Shown in pieces: positions 49,960-58,210 of a DNA stretch of 64,000 nucleotides; the stretch's first letter is position 1, and each line of letters starts with the position of its first letter. The position numbers were made by a program, and so were the translations under genes. The DNA comes from Catenulispora acidiphila DSM 44928 (GTDB lineage: Bacteria > Actinomycetota > Actinomycetes > Streptomycetales > Catenulisporaceae). A model generated the notes under the pieces. It did no database searches, was not told the DNA's origin, and saw only the letters and a program-made list of their open reading frames with translations. The DNA lies in contig NC_013131.1 of NCBI RefSeq assembly GCF_000024025.1, forward strand, positions 7,378,001-7,442,000, written 5' to 3'.

Positions 49960-50421
49960 TCACGCCACCACTTGCCCGGCCCGGGCCGAGCCTGGGTCCA
50001 GCACCCGGGCCAAGTGGTCCAGCAGGGCTTCGAGTTCCTCTCCTGTGCCGATCGGTCTGAGAACCTCGGATTGCATCCGGGCGAGCGATGGCGCGAGGCG
50101 GGCGTGCAACTCGCGGCCGCGCTGCGCGGCGTGGACGAGAACTCGTCGCCGGTCGGCTGGATCGGGATGGCGGTAGACCAGGTTGTCCGTGACGAGGCGG
50201 TCGATGAGCTTGGTCGCGGTCGGGGCGGGAAGCAGGGCGTATTCCGCGACCTCGGTCATGGTGTGGCCCAAGCCGTCGGCGAGCAGGTTGAGCACTCGCC
50301 ACTGCTCGATCGAGCAGCCTTCGGCCTCGGCCTCCAGCAGGGCCGATTGGCGGCGTACCGCGCGGTGCTCAGCCATGCTCAGGAGGTGCACGAGATCACG
50401 CTGTGGTTCGGCCGCGGTCAT
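49960..50421 (-). CDS. MarR-family transcriptional regulator
   Basis: 153 residues. Helix-turn-helix region SIEQWRVLNLLADGLGHTMT, LPAPTATKLIDRLVTDNLVY with wing DPADRRRVLVHAAQRG and a long C-terminal dimer helix. It is divergent from the AmiC-like gene at 50594, so the 170-bp gap between them is the likely target. This puts it as a candidate regulator of the nitrogen-scavenging block. Confidence 0.88.
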   Translation of the reverse strand: MTAAEPQRDLVHLLSMAEHRAVRRQSALLEAEAEGCSIEQWRVLNLLADGLGHTMTEVAEYALLPAPTATKLIDRLVTDNLVYRHPDPADRRRVLVHAAQRGRELHARLAPSLARMQSEVLRPIGTGEELEALLDHLARVLDPGSARAGQVVA

Positions 50422-50593
50422 CGACTCGCTCTTTCTCTTCGGCTCGTGGCGTGCTCTGGGCTGGACGGACGGGCCTGCTGCCGGTCAGGATGACTGCGCC
50501 TGGAGCTCAGCGCCGAGCCGTAGCTCGTCAGCTCTCTGCGCCGCCGCACTATTACCGTTATCCGCATCCTCGTACCCGTCCCGAGGTGGTCGC

Positions 50594-51697
50594 GTGTTCG
50601 CCGAGACGCCGCAGTCGCAGCCGGCGCCTGCGCCGTTGCGCGGCACTGCGGATGAGGAGTTGACCGTGGCGCTCGTGATTCCATTGTCCGGGCCCGCCGG
50701 GGTCTTCGGACCCTCCTGCGAGCTGTCGGCGCGGCTGGCGGCCGCCGAGCTCAACGATGCCGGCGGGGTGCTGGGGCGGCGGGTGCGGTTGGTACCGGTG
50801 GACGGCGGAGGCGCGCCGGAGCGGGTGGCCGCCGAGGTGGCGGCACTGGTGGACGTCGGTGCGGTGGACGCGGTCGTGGGCTGGCACATCTCGGCGGTGC
50901 GACGTGTGCTGGCGCCGCGGATCGCCGGTCGGGTGCCCTACATCTATACCGCGCAGTATGAGGGTGGCGAGCGGACGCCCGGTGTCTTCGTGACCGGGGA
51001 GACCCCTGCGCGTCAACTGCTTCCGGCGATGCGGCTGCTGGCCGAGTCCCATGGTGTACGGCGCTGGTTCGTGGTGGGCAACGACTATGTGTGGCCACGT
51101 GTGACTGCGCGGGCGGCGCTGCGGTACGCGCGGGCCTGCGGGGGCCGCGTCTGCGGTCAGGAATTCGTCGCGCTGGGCACGCACGAGTACGGCGGGGTGG
51201 TGCGCGCCATCGAGCGGAGCGCCGCGGACATCGTTTTGATGCTGTTGATCGGCGCGGACGCGGTGCATTTCAACCGGGCTTACGCCTCGCACGGCCTGCA
51301 CCAAAGCGTTCTGCGGCTGAGCACGCACATGGACGAGAACATGCTGATGGCCACCGGCGCGGAGGCCACCGAGAACCTTTGGGCGGCCGCGGGCTACTTC
51401 GAGACACTCGCCACCGCGGAGAGCTTGGAGTTCAACGGGCGGTACGCGGCGCGGTTCGGGACGCAGGCGCCGGTGCTCAGCAGCCTGGGAGAGTCCTGCT
51501 ATGAGGGCGTCCGGCTGTTGGCGGCGCTGGCGTCGCGGGCTCACAGCCTGAACGTACGCACCCTGCTTCGCGCGGGAAGCGCCGCGGCTTATGAGGGGCC
51601 GCGTGGCGCGGTCCGGCTGCACGGCAACCACGTGGAGCACCCCATCTACTTGGCGAGGGCCGACGCCTTCGACTTCGACATCGTCGCGCAACTCTAG
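50594..51697 (+). CDS. Cytosolic AmiC/FmdD-like amide or urea ligand-binding protein
   Basis: 367 residues from a GTG with GAGGTGG upstream. Type I periplasmic-binding fold of the AmiC/urea-ABC family: ELTVALVIPLSGPAGVFGPS, LNDAGGVLGRRVRLVPVDGG, VDAVVGWHISAVRR, VFVTGETPARQLLPA, NLWAAAGYFETL. There is no signal peptide or lipobox, so it should stay in the cytosol, as AmiC of Pseudomonas does when it senses amides for AmiR. No ABC transporter or AmiR homologue is adjacent. It heads the block of NCS1 permease and urease genes, so it may sense urea, an amide or a related ureide. Confidence 0.85.
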   Translation: MFAETPQSQPAPAPLRGTADEELTVALVIPLSGPAGVFGPSCELSARLAAAELNDAGGVLGRRVRLVPVDGGGAPERVAAEVAALVDVGAVDAVVGWHISAVRRVLAPRIAGRVPYIYTAQYEGGERTPGVFVTGETPARQLLPAMRLLAESHGVRRWFVVGNDYVWPRVTARAALRYARACGGRVCGQEFVALGTHEYGGVVRAIERSAADIVLMLLIGADAVHFNRAYASHGLHQSVLRLSTHMDENMLMATGAEATENLWAAAGYFETLATAESLEFNGRYAARFGTQAPVLSSLGESCYEGVRLLAALASRAHSLNVRTLLRAGSAAAYEGPRGAVRLHGNHVEHPIYLARADAFDFDIVAQL

Positions 51698-51772: not shown

Positions 51773-51859
51773 ACACTCTCAACACCCGCACACCAGTCTC
51801 AACGGCAATCCCGGCGCTCCCGCCGGAGCCAGACCGTGACCGCGACAGGGAGGCAGAGT

Positions 51860-53581
51860 GTGACCGACACCGACAGCTCGGCCAGAACAGGGCAGGCCTC
51901 GACCGGCACCACCGCGACGACATCGACCGGTGCCAAGCGTGCCTATCACCGGTGGGCGAAGAACGACACGCTCGAGGACTACTCGCTGCGCTACGCACCC
52001 AAGTCCTTCCGGCGCTGGAGCCCCTACGTCGTCGCCACGACCGCGCTCGGCGGCATCGCCTACCTCGCCGATTTCGCCATCGGCGGCTCGATCGCCATCT
52101 CCTATGGATTCAGCAGCGCCGCCGTCGCGATTCTGATCGCCGCGGTCGTCATCTTCGCCACCGGCATCCCGATCGCCTACTACTCGGCGAAGTACTCCGT
52201 GGACATGGACCTGCTGACCCGCGGCGCGGGATTCGGCTACCTCGGCTCGACGCTGACCTCGATCATCTACGCCAGCTTCACCTTCATCTTCTTCGCCCTC
52301 GAAGGCTCGATCATGGCGCAGGCCTTCCAACTCGGCCTGCACATACCCCTGGCGGTCAGCTATCTGATCGCCTCGCTGCTCGTCATCCCCCTGGTGATCT
52401 ACGGCATGACCGCGCTGTCGAAGATGCAGGTGTGGACCCAGCCGATCTGGCTGATCATGATGGTCGCGCCGTTCCTCGCCATCGCGGTCAAGGATCCCGG
52501 CGAGTTCGCCCGGTTCACGCACTTCGGCGGCGACTCGCCGACCGGCGCCGGGTTCAGCTTTCTCAGCGCCGGGGCGGGCGCCGGCGTAGCGCTCTCGCTC
52601 ATCGCGCAGATCGGCGAGCAGGTCGACTACCTGCGCTTCATGCCGGACAAGACGGAGGAGAACAAGAAGCAGTGGTGGGGCGCGGTTCTCTCGGCGGGTC
52701 CGGGGTGGGTCGTGCTCGGCGCGCTCAAGCAACTCGGCGGGGCGTTCCTGGCGTTCTACGTCACCGAGAAGATCGGCAAGTCCGTTGCCGACGAGCCGAT
52801 CCAGCAGTACCTGCTGGGCTTGAAGACCTTCGCCGCGCCCGTCGCGCTGGGCCTGGCCACTTTCTTCGTGGTGCTCTCGCAAGTCAAGATCAATTCAACG
52901 AACGCCTATTCCGGATCGCTGTCCTGGTCCAACTTCTTCTCCCGGGTCCTGCACAAGCACCCCGGACGCGTCGTGTGGATCTTTCTGAATGTCGGCATCT
53001 CGCTGGCGCTGATGGAGGGCGGGGTCTTCGGCTTCCTGAACAACGTCCTCGGCTTCTACTCCAACGTCGCGATCGCTTGGATCGGCGCCGTCACCGCCGA
53101 CCTGGTGATCAACAAGCCGCTCAAACTCAGCCCGTCCTACATCGAGTTCAAGCGCGCGCACCTGTACAACTTCAACCCGGTCGGCTTCGGCTCCATGCTG
53201 ATCGCCTCCGCGGTCTCGATCGTCGCGTACTTCAACGCCTTCGGTGCGTACGCCAAGGCCTTCTCTCCCCTGATCGCCCTCGGCATCGGCCTGGCCCTCT
53301 CGCCGATCCTGGCGTACACGACGAAGGGCAAGTACTACATCGCCCGCGTGGACGGCCTCGACGAGCCGCTGGTCGTGGACGGCCTGCTGTCCTCCGTCGA
53401 GCTCACCTGCACGGTCTGCACGGACGCCTTCGAGCGGCCGGACATGGCATCCTGCCCGTTCCACAGCGGTCCGATCTGCTCGCTGTGCTGCAGCCTGGAG
53501 GCCGCGTGCCACGACGCGTGCAAGAAGACCGGGTCCGGGGCGGTCGACCTCGGTATGCCCGTCACCGCGACCCCGGTGTGA
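51860..53581 (+). CDS. NCS1 (purine-cytosine permease-like) transporter with Cys-rich C-terminal domain
   Basis: 573 residues from a GTG with GGGAGG upstream; a GTG 24 bp earlier is in frame but weaker. About 12 transmembrane helices ([53 protein letters not shown], an NCS1-like N-x-Y-S-G-S motif). The last ~75 residues are cytosolic and Cys-rich: CTVC, SCPFH, CSLCC, ACHDAC, a pattern suited to one or two zinc sites. NCS1 permeases import nucleobases, allantoin or hydantoins. Directly upstream of urease, so the substrate is probably a urea-yielding compound. Confidence 0.9.
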
Positions 53582-53603: not shown

Positions 53604-53906
53604 ATGCTTCTGTCCCCCCACGAGCAGGAACGCCTGCTCATCCACGTCGCCGCCGGGCTCGCCCGGGAGCGGCGAGCCCGCGGGCTGCGCCTGAACTACC
53701 CGGAGGCGATCGCCGTGCTCACCTCGTTCCTGCTCGAACGCGCCCGGGACGGCCACCGTGTCAGCGAACTGATGGACGCCGGACGTCATGTGCTGACCCG
53801 CGAGGATGTGCTGGAGGGGGTGCCGGAGATGATCGACGAGGTGCAGATCGAGGCCACCTTTCCGGACGGCACGAAGCTCCTCACCGTGCACCGGCCGATC
53901 GGATGA
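53604..53906 (+). CDS. ureA: Urease subunit gamma
   Basis: 100 residues, standard length. [20 protein letters not shown], the [21 protein letters not shown] core and the [21 protein letters not shown] end match UreA. Structural subunit of nickel urease, which hydrolyses urea to ammonia and carbamate. 22 bp after the permease; overlaps ureB by 4 bp (ATGA). Confidence 0.97.
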
Positions 53907-54271
53907 GGGGCTCGGTGGATCACTCACAGCAGCTTCAGACCGGGGGTGTGGCCCCCGGCGAGGTCCGGCTCGTCGCCGAGCCGATCGAACTCAACGCCGG
54001 GGCGCCGCGTACGACGCTCACCGTGCTCAACACCGGCGACCGGCCCGTACAGGTCGGCTCGCACTACCACCTGGCCGAGGCCAACCCGGCCCTGGAATTC
54101 GACCGCGGCGCCGCCTGGGGCCGGCGTCTGGACATCCCGGCGGGCACCGCGGTGCGCTTCGAACCAGGCCTGGCCCGCGAGGTCGCGCTGGTTCCGATCG
54201 CCGGGCGGCGGGTCGTGACCGGACTGCGCGGGATCAGCGGCGCGCGCGGGGAGGGCAGGCTCGATGGCTGA
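53903..54271 (+). CDS. ureB: Urease subunit beta
   Basis: 122 residues. [20 protein letters not shown], then [18 protein letters not shown] and [12 protein letters not shown] are UreB hallmarks. Structural subunit around the active site. Starts inside the ureA stop and its end overlaps ureC by 8 bp, so translation of the three structural genes is coupled. Confidence 0.96.
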
Positions 54272-55997
54272 AATGTCCCGGCAGCGTTACGCGGCGCTGT
54301 ACGGCCCGACCGTGGGCGACAGCGTCCGGCTCGCCGACACGAACCTTTTCATCGAGGTCGAGCGGGATCTGTGCGCGCACGCCGGATATGGCGAGGAAGC
54401 GGTGTTCGGCGGCGGGAAGGTGATCCGCGAGTCGATGGGCATGGCCCACCTCGCCCGCACCGGGCGCGGCGACGTTCCCGGCAGCCCGGACACCGTGATC
54501 ACCGGCGCCGTCGTGCTGGACCACTGGGGTGTCGTGAAGGCCGACGTCGGGATCCGGGACGGCCGGATCGTCGCGCTGGGCAAGGCCGGGAATCCGGACA
54601 CGATGCACGGCGTGCACCCGGCACTGGTGATCGGCCCGTCCACAGAGGTGATCTCCGGCAACGGCCGGATCCTCACCGCCGGCGGCATCGACGGACACGT
54701 GCACTTCATCTGCCCCCAAGCGATCACCGAAGCGCTGGGGGCGGGCATCACGACCCTGATCGGCGGCGGCACCGGACCGGCTGAGGGCAGCAAGGCCACG
54801 ACCGTCACTCCGGGCGCCTGGCATCTGGCCCGGATGTTCGAGGCCCTGGACCCGTGGCCGGTCAACTTCGCGCTTCTGGGCAAGGGGAACTCGACCAACG
54901 AGGAAGCCCTGTGGGAGCAGCTGCGCGCGGGCGCGGCCGGATTCAAGATCCACGAGGACTGGGGCGCGACGCCTGCCGCGATCGACGTCTGCCTGCGGGT
55001 CGCGGACGCCTCGGGCGCCCAGGTGTCCATCCACACCGACACGCTCAACGAGGCCGGGTTCGTCGAGAGCACGGTGGCTGCGATCGCCGGGCGCACGATC
55101 GAGGCCTACCACGTGGAGGGAGCCGGCGGTGGCCACGCACCGGATATCATCACCGTCGCCGGCCTGCCGAACTTCCTTCCGGCCTCGACGAATCCGACCA
55201 GGCCGCACACCGTCAACACCATCGACGAGCACCTGGACATGCTGATGGTGTGCCACCATCTGTCGCCGGCGATCCCGGAGGACCTGGCGTTCGCCGAATC
55301 CCGCATCCGGCCGACCACGATCGCGGCCGAGGACGTCCTGCACGACCTCGGCGCGATCTCGATGATCGGCTCGGACTCCCAAGCGATGGGCCGGATCGGC
55401 GAGACCGTCATCCGCACCTGGCAGACCGCGCACGCCATGAAGGCCCGGCGTGGCGCGCTGCCCGGCGACGGTGCCGCCGACAACCATCGCGCCCGCAGGT
55501 ACGTCGCCAAGTACACGATCGGCCCGGCCGTCGCTCACGGTATGGACGCCGAGATCGGATCCGTCGAACCGGGCAAGCTCGCCGACCTCGTGCTCTGGGA
55601 CCCGCGTTTCTTCGCGGTACGTCCTCATCTGGTGATCAAGGGCGGTGCGATCGCGTGGGCCGCGATGGGGGATGCCAACGCCTCCATCCCGACGCCGCAG
55701 CCGGTGCTGCCCCGGCCGATGTTCGGGGCGTACGGTCACGCCCCCGCTGCCACCAGCCTTGCCTTCGTCGCACCGGCCGCGATCGGCGACGGGCTCGCCG
55801 AACGGCTCGGCGTTCGGCGCGAGCTGGTCGCGCAGAAGGATGTACGGCGGCTGACGAAGGCGGACCTGCCGGAGAACACCGCACTACCGCGGATCGAGGT
55901 CGACCCGGATACCTTCACCGTGCGCATCGACGGCGAGACCGTGGAGCCTGCTCCGGCCGAGATCCTGCCGCTGGCTCAGCGCTACTTCCTGTTCTGA
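54264..55997 (+). CDS. ureC: Urease subunit alpha (catalytic)
   Basis: 577 residues. All active-site features are present: nickel-binding His pair in [12 protein letters not shown], the carbamylated Lys in [19 protein letters not shown], the flap MVCHHL with the mobile Cys/His, and the Asp ligand in GSDSQAMGR. Full length and intact, so functional urease is expected once the accessory proteins load nickel. Confidence 0.98.
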
Positions 55998-56008
55998 GGC
56001 CGGCATCT

Positions 56009-56689
56009 GTGAACCTGGCCTCGCTGCTCATGCTGACCGACAGCCGCCTGCCCGCGGGCACGCACGCGCACTCGGGCGGGCTGGAGGCCGCCGTCGCCGC
56101 CGGGCGGGTCCTCGAGCCGGGCGACCTCCACGCCTTCCTGCTCGGCCGGCTCACCACCACCGGCCTGACCGGAGCCGCCTTCTCGGCGGCGGCGCTCGAA
56201 GCGGCTCGCGGACCGGACGACGCGCTGCTCGCCGAGCTCGACGCCGAGTACGAGGCGCGTACCCCCTCGCCCGCGCAACGCCGCGCGTCCCGAACGCTGG
56301 GCCGGCAACTCCTGCGCGCGGTCCGCGCGGGCTGGCCGGGCCCGGCTCTGGCCGCGGCTTCCGCCGTGCACCCGGACGGCCCCCACCAGCCGATCGCCTT
56401 CGGCGCGGCGGGTGTGACCGCCGGTCTCAGCGCGCACGACGCCGCGCTCGCCTGCGCACTCGGCGCCGTCAGCGGTCCGGCGAACGCCGCCACCCGGCTC
56501 CTCGGCGTCGACCCCGACGCGGTCACCCGGGTGCTCGCCGTGCTCGAACCCCACATCCAGGACACCGCTGACGCGGCGCTGAAAGCCGCGCTCGGCCCGA
56601 TCAGCGAACTGCCATCGTTCAGCGCACCCCGTCTGGACATCTCGGCAGAACATCACAGCACATGGGAGGTGCGTCTCTTTGCATCGTAA
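56009..56689 (+). CDS. ureF: Urease accessory protein UreF
   Basis: 226 residues from a GTG with GAGG upstream. [20 protein letters not shown], an all-helical body and [15 protein letters not shown] fit UreF. With UreD and UreG it forms the complex that delivers nickel and CO2 to the alpha subunit. No ureE is present, as in many actinobacteria. Confidence 0.92.
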
Positions 56690-57401
56690 ATATCCTGACG
56701 AAGGCGCGGCCGGAGCCGGCATGAGCTTCGCCCTGGGGGCCGCGCGTACCGGCGGACCGCTCCGCATCGGCATCGGCGGTCCCGTCGGCTCGGGCAAGAC
56801 CGCCCTCGTGGCAGCCCTGTGTCGTGCACTGCGCGACGATTACGCCCTGGCCGTGGTGACCAACGACATCTACACCCGTGAGGATGCCGAGATCCTGCTG
56901 CGCCAAGGCGTGCTCGAACCGGAACGGATCTCCGCGGTGGAGACCGGCTGTTGTCCGCACACCGCGATCCGCGACGACATCTCGGCCAACCTCGAAGCCG
57001 TCGAAGCCCTCGAACGGCGCTTCGCCCCCCTGGACCTGGTGCTCGTCGAAAGCGGCGGAGACAACCTCACCGCGACCTTCAGCAAGGGCCTGATCGACCG
57101 GCAGATCTTCGTGATCGACGTCGCCGGCGGAGACAAAGTCCCTCGCAAGGGCGGCCCCGGCATCATCTCCTCCGATCTGCTGGTGATCAACAAGACGGAC
57201 CTCGCAGAGCTGGTCCACGCGGACCTCGACGTGATGCGCCGCGACGCCAAGCGCCAGCGCACCGACGCGCACGGAACCGAACGCCCCACGGTGCTCATGT
57301 CGCTCGCCGCCGACCCGCTCGCCGCCGACGTCGCGGCGTGGACCACCGCTCTGATCGCCCAGCGCCGCGCCGGCGCGAGCACTGTCCGGTCCCCGGCATG
57401 A
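56679..57401 (+). CDS. ureG: Urease accessory GTPase UreG
   Basis: 240 residues. G-domain motifs: P-loop [21 protein letters not shown], the nickel CPH in [20 protein letters not shown], and INKTDLAE (NKxD). Hydrolyses GTP to drive nickel insertion. The start is probably the TTG at 56679, which has GGGAGGT 8 nt upstream and overlaps ureF; an ATG at 56721 would also keep the G domain. Overlaps ureD by 4 bp. Confidence 0.95.
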
Positions 57402-58210
57402 AGGCGACGGCGCGCCTGGTCGCCGAGGCACGTTCTGACGGCACGACCCGTCTGGCCACCCTCGCCGGGCAAGCCCCCTTATTGCTGCGCCAGACCATGG
57501 GGGACGGCACGACGGACGCCGCCCAGGTCCACCTCGTCGCTGGCGCCGCCGGACCCATCGGCGGCGACGAACTGCACCTCGGTGTCCACCTCGGCCCGGG
57601 AGCCCGCGTGCGGATCCGCAGCGTCGCCGCCTCCCTCGCCCTGCCCGCAACCCAGCCGTGTGAGTCGACCCTCGATATCAGGATACGTATCGAGAGCGGC
57701 GCCGCGCTCGACTGGAGCGCCCAGCCGCTCATCGCCGCGCGCGGCGCCCGCCACCGCACGACCGTGAGCATCGAGATGACCGACGACGCCCACCTGATCT
57801 GGCAGGAACAGACGCTGCTCGGCCGGCACGGTGAGGAGCCCGGATCGGTGGTCACTCGTCTGCGTGTCCGCCGCGGCGGCCGCCCTCTGCTCGACCACAC
57901 GCTCGCTGTCGGCCCGGCCCATCCCGGTTCGCTCGGACCCGCCGTCGTCGGAGCCGATCGTGCCGGCTCCACGACCGTGATCGTTGATCCGGCCTGGACC
58001 AGAGTGCCACCCGCCAAGCGGCTCACCATCGAACCCCGCGACGACGACCACGGCGCTCTCGCGGTGTTCCCGCTCGGTGGACCCGCAGCCGTCATCAGTG
58101 CCTTGGCACCGGACGCCCTCAGTCTGCAACGGCTCCTCAGCCGGAACGCAGCCCTTCGCCTTCCTGCGCTTGCGGCGTATCCCGCGCAGGCCGTCGCAGG
58201 ATCAGGTTGA
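57398..58210 (+). CDS. ureD: Urease accessory protein UreD (UreH)
   Basis: 270 residues, ATGA-coupled to ureG. Weakly conserved family: [62 protein letters not shown]. Tunnel protein through which nickel passes with UreF/UreG. Last gene of the urease operon; the downstream gene is convergent. Confidence 0.93.

Follow-up and report, generated by a model that had tools for sequence, protein, structure and literature searches.

Why does a permease encoded directly upstream of urease genes end in a cytosolic tail crowded with cysteines? The question is raised by a protein of 581 residues encoded at 51836-53581 (plus strand) of the window, the whole stretch of 64,000 nucleotides from Catenulispora acidiphila that was analysed here. 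Its open reading frame, its AlphaFold2 model and its homologues delimit an NCS1-fold permease with a C-terminal eight-cysteine module. The best overall explanation, to which we assign a probability of roughly 0.55, is that an NCS1-fold permease for urea or amides carries a metal-binding coupling module and that a kinase was later fused to this unit, giving rise to a transceptor.

The permease and its gene neighbourhood

The source genome consists of one 10.47-Mb contig, and the nearest relatives of the permease gene reside in Catenulispora species. Because close homologues start with MTDTDS..., the GTG at 51860 is more likely to be the true start. Directly downstream, ureA, ureB, ureC, ureF, ureG and ureD follow in that order (53604-58210, plus strand), recognized by the Pfam families Urease_gamma, Urease_beta, Urease_alpha, UreF, cobW/UreG and UreD. 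The permease is preceded on its 5' side by an orphan gene for a UrtA/AmiC-like protein of the periplasmic-binding fold (50549-51697, plus strand, start uncertain), the product of which matches Peripla_BP_6 in Pfam (E 1e-85) and, in the PDB, urea-binding proteins and AmiC. Binding-protein gene, permease and ureABCFGD run in one direction in the window. The upstream position of the orphan gene is kept in many Streptomyces without the remaining parts of an ABC transporter, and its product is a candidate for an exported or, like AmiC, a cytosolic protein. Divergently upstream of the whole set lies a gene for a MarR-family protein (49960-50421, minus strand), a candidate regulator of the operon.

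The assignment to the NCS1 family made in the initial annotation is borne out by the fold. Structure prediction with AlphaFold2, suggested there as a check, performed well for the membrane part (many segments above 85 pLDDT) and poorly for the tail, which stayed at pLDDT of about 30-60 in models of the whole protein and of the module alone. Foldseek and VIA-align both returned Mhp1 and CodB, two NCS1 transporters, as top PDB matches of the permease model. Structure comparison placed its LeuT-type fold nearest to these two, with Z scores of 29.1 for CodB and 26.1 for Mhp1 and at most 21.5 for the other LeuT-fold families listed. The permease itself has no Pfam match, PF02133 included, and a Klebsiella relative with 53% identity reaches a PF02133 score of 37.7 at a cut-off of 23.5. 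Since the modelled fold matches NCS1 and the profile misses the window protein but accepts its relative, the permease is, on the strength of the model, a divergent NCS1 branch. About 80 positions are invariant across three subgroups of the permease. The permease part thus shares the fold of CodB and Mhp1 (PF02133; PDB 7qoa, 2jln/2x79) at only about 15-19% identity, and it differs from them in the added cysteine tail of about 80 residues and in a family gene context of urea and amide rather than nucleobase genes.

Collection of homologues with the same tail, also proposed in the initial annotation, revealed that the family mostly adjoins urease, formamidase, amidase or UrtABCDE genes and that it occurs elsewhere in kinase fusions. 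Because of this neighbourhood, the substrate is likely urea or a short amide. That a small non-cyclic nitrogen-rich substrate is possible for NCS1 transporters is exemplified by MetT, which transports metformin (PMC13390362); the terms urea, cysteine and urease are absent from that paper. The Streptomyces loci, in which the module is intact, have no urease gene within 8 kb, so these members might carry another compound. A search for UT-type urea transporters gave no match in the Catenulispora genome, nor in any control genome.

The eight-cysteine tail

Residues 1-524 of the permease are free of cysteine and the last 57 residues contain eight, at positions 525, 528, 540, 548, 551, 552, 558 and 562 (codons 53408-53521). 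With the 0.97% cysteine content of the neighbouring genes as background, at least eight cysteines would occur in a given stretch of 38 residues with a probability of about 3e-9, and anywhere in the protein with one of about 2e-6. A chance origin of the cluster is excluded. The initial annotation had described a cytosolic tail with eight or more cysteines in CxxC, CxxCC and CxxxC patterns plus histidine, and this description was confirmed: the patterns correspond to CTVC, CSLCC and CHDAC, and one histidine is found in CPFH and another in CHD. Some 80 residues extend beyond the last membrane helix. They begin with a variable linker (53351-53401, plus strand, residues 506-522) that leads from YYIAR after the last helix to the module and differs in length among homologues. 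The module itself (53402-53527, plus strand, residues 523-564) has the spacing C-x2-C-x11-C-x7-C-x2-CC-x5-C-x3-C and was delimited by cysteine conservation, alignments and codon differences; the C-terminal end behind it is short and drifting.

Across several phyla, 89 distinct homologous modules (50 in free-standing permeases and 39 in kinase fusions) retain the complete set of eight cysteines, while the flanks of the module drift in sequence. Raw codon differences, uncorrected for rates, among nine relatives amount to 63 non-synonymous against 69 synonymous in the module, compared to 2.6 non-synonymous per synonymous difference in the linker and 2.1 in the C-terminal end. A frameshift artefact and absence of the tail from all orthologues, the two outcomes that the initial annotation had named as fatal to its proposal, are excluded: the reading frame of the permease continues through the tail, over 50 homologues share it, and its eight cysteines are complete in all 89 modules. 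The histidine of CPFH is unlikely to be a ligand, since it is replaced by Q, I or Y in other homologues. In a separate case, a stop or frameshift interrupts the permease gene of Streptomyces humi (L028:7998-9761) and leaves two open frames.

The module could not be identified with any described zinc-finger family, as only chance-level matches were obtained: Pfam gave none at E 10, NCBIfam rad18 alone (E 0.95), and the PDB sequence search weak zinc-finger matches with a best E of 0.027. The module, with its eight invariant cysteines, is very probably a metal binder.

Free-standing and kinase-fused forms

Full-tail homologues are present in Catenulispora, Actinospica, many Streptomyces, other Actinomycetota, Alicyclobacillus and Methylovirgula. 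A search with a tail profile detected the module in 52 of 398 Pseudomonadota genomes, at 57 places and always in an open reading frame of at least 894 codons; three weaker matches (E 0.008-0.01) were left out of this count. In none of the 398 genomes was the module detected in a smaller protein, and all fusion-size frames examined encode permease-kinase fusions. Among 249 Bacillota genomes, the sole convincing match is the Alicyclobacillus genome used as centre, and no second module-bearing protein was found in the Catenulispora genome. One Bacillota frame of 113 residues between miaA-like and SpoVK-like genes (L122:1420-1758) has module-like spacing, CPIIEGYLCRICCSYELCND; its match (E 0.0012, in 1 of 249 genomes) may be due to chance. 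A module-like stretch in a frame without permease at a urease/formamidase locus (L073/L169, genome G237) is apparently a frameshifted or broken permease copy.

In the Pseudomonadota fusions, the permease is followed by YY.AR and the eight-cysteine module; next come two segments of strong hydrophobicity, then HisKA and HATPase_c and, in most cases, a receiver. HisKA and HATPase_c behind the transporter were confirmed in two loci (L084 and L149), and two proteins (L149 and L153) are plain kinases without a receiver. Urt, FmdA/FmdB, AmiE or urease genes lie within about 9 kb in 22 of 23 sampled fusion loci, the exception being a 4.8-kb contig, and each of the 21 hybrid-kinase loci has a LuxR-type regulator gene adjoining that of the kinase. 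The same arrangement occurs in annotated plasmids of Burkholderia, Chelatococcus, Novosphingobium and Sinorhizobium, and in Methylovirgula a free-standing and a fused form share a cluster with formamidase and amidase genes. The full module is retained in each of the 39 sampled fused kinases, a reduced tail in none. The linker between transporter and kinase has no Pfam match; a STAC linker is defined as a four-helix bundle at this place, where the model of the Cys module is of low confidence. Behind the Cys module the window protein has only its short C-terminal end and no kinase, and it is therefore not a transceptor.

UrtC was detected in 0 of 12 genomes with the free-standing form versus 20 of 20 with the fused form. 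In the Catenulispora genome the best UrtC score was 106 bits at a cut-off of 296, with positive controls at 430-450. As UrtC is rare in Actinomycetota anyway (18 of 296 genomes, 6%), its absence from all 12 means little, and the idea that the free-standing permease replaces a missing UrtC is consistent with the data but is given little weight.

Origin of the fusion and reduced tails

A tree of the permease part with the tail excluded, obtained by a fast search with a single measure of support, groups the fused permeases in one clade (SH-aLRT 100); its root is unsure on account of a very long outgroup branch. Free-standing permeases with eight cysteines are scattered on several branches outside this clade, so the full tail is probably older than the kinase fusion, which apparently arose once. 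CxxC...CxxC also closes the sequence of a distant relative (L065, 25% identity), and a four-cysteine tail may thus be older still.

Proteins with a reduced tail form one nested branch that includes Klebsiella, Acinetobacter, Moraxella, Tsukamurella, a Streptomyces 'allantoin permease' and others. Half-tails of four cysteines occur in Klebsiella, Acinetobacter and Moraxella, cysteine-poor tails in Tsukamurella and genome G288, and nearly all tail cysteines are gone in L063 and L175. In all 12 reduced tails that keep the core, C1, C2, C4 and C5 are present and C6, C7 and C8 are jointly lost (CCCCCx-- in nine, CCxCCx-- in three). Because C6, C7 and C8 go together while the other four stay, the pattern points to two separate sites. 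The simplest reading of these sequences would pair C1, C2, C4 and C5 as one Cys4 site and C3, C6, C7 and C8 as the other, but C3 is not strictly tied to C6-C8, as it is kept in the nine reduced tails of the first type and lost in the three of the second. In a Klebsiella record (L086), an IS110-like element sits between ureB and ureE of the urease cluster, with no annotated ureC there.

Possible function of the module

In the mechanism favoured here, the permease would bring urea, or a small amide, into the cell for the product of the urease genes that follow it. The module in its cytosolic tail would bind two metal ions, probably zinc, through the eight invariant cysteines. Placed shortly after the last helix, it could serve as a coupling unit that tracks the alternating conformations of the permease and relays them to the cytosolic side; a tail that regulates or couples the transporter is plausible from its sequence and position. 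In the free-standing form, the module might control the inner gate of the permease that carries it or touch a soluble partner. In Pseudomonadota, the addition of two helices and a histidine kinase to permease and module would yield a transceptor responsive to urea or amides, which would act through the LuxR-type regulator on UrtABCDE, formamidase and urease genes. The kinase fusions and the gene context suggest such a signalling role of the module. A tentative extension, which goes beyond what we would defend firmly, considers the module a hitherto undescribed relay, stabilized by metal, which senses the conformational state of an NCS1-type urea/amide permease, predates the kinase and made the permease 'kinase-ready'; the free-standing permeases of urease operons would then also signal their transport state to a cytosolic partner.

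The alternative that survives best, although doubtful, regards the module as a purely structural element, a zinc-stapled C-terminal cap for folding or membrane insertion, to which a kinase was fused by accident and through which no signal passes. Half-tail and cysteine-poor members retain intact permeases in urease/formamidase loci, and hence some members can do without the full module. A generic cap would however hardly need eight cysteines that stay unchanged across phyla in free-standing and fused forms alike and are complete in every sampled fused kinase. It is improbable that the module senses redox state (thiol-disulfide) or metal level (Zn or Ni) and switches the permease or kinase in response to cytosolic redox conditions or metal supply. 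The CxxC, CxxCC and CxxxC patterns would suit such a role, and urease requires nickel, but the module is also fully conserved at FmdA and Urt loci with no urease in reach, so that a nickel link is not general, and no redox partner genes were noticed adjoining the family. Docking of a urease maturation factor, as put forward in the initial annotation, agrees with the position directly upstream of ureABCFGD and with urease genes next to the permease in Alicyclobacillus and in some further Actinomycetota, but is very improbable, because many kinase fusions at UrtABCDE/formamidase loci and the Streptomyces members carry a full module with no urease nearby and because the module is reduced or lost in permeases of urease clusters (Klebsiella L086, Acinetobacter L174, G288/L165).

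Relation to known systems

Transporters serve as kinase input in CbrA/CrbS, where an SLC5 transporter is coupled through a STAC linker (PMC13022988, PMC9100948), and in Amt5, an ammonium transporter (PMC5764959). The fused relatives of the window protein follow a similar logic, in that transporter, linker and histidine kinase are encoded beside genes for the presumed nutrient. They differ in using an NCS1-type transporter rather than SLC5 or Amt and in a linker that holds the eight-cysteine module, unlike STAC as described; the window protein differs from both systems in lacking the kinase. The cytosolic ends of the fungal NCS1 transporter FurE affect gating and specificity, its C-tail being characterized by acidic and lysine motifs in contrast to the cysteine clusters found here, and the review concerned finds no conserved motif common to all NCS1 C-tails (PMC6597760). 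In the literature searched, which covered subscription journals only in small part, no description of an NCS1-kinase fusion or an eight-cysteine tail was found, and no dedicated sensor of this type for external urea or short amides is described there.

If the favoured mechanism holds, NCS1 permeases would be the third type of transporter to act as kinase input after SLC5 and Amt, and a small metal-binding module would provide the coupling. Since this module exists with and without a kinase, the effect of such a linker on the transporter alone can be directly addressed. Generic labels such as 'ATP-binding protein', 'hybrid sensor histidine kinase', 'allantoin permease' and 'hypothetical protein' conceal the family. 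A genome paper from 2026 reports a hybrid kinase and a LuxR regulator beside urtABCDE in Ectopseudomonas and leaves the permease part unmentioned (PMC13296017). Two records named 'Acinetobacter phage MD-2021a' also match the module, at a gene annotated as arcB (histidine kinase).
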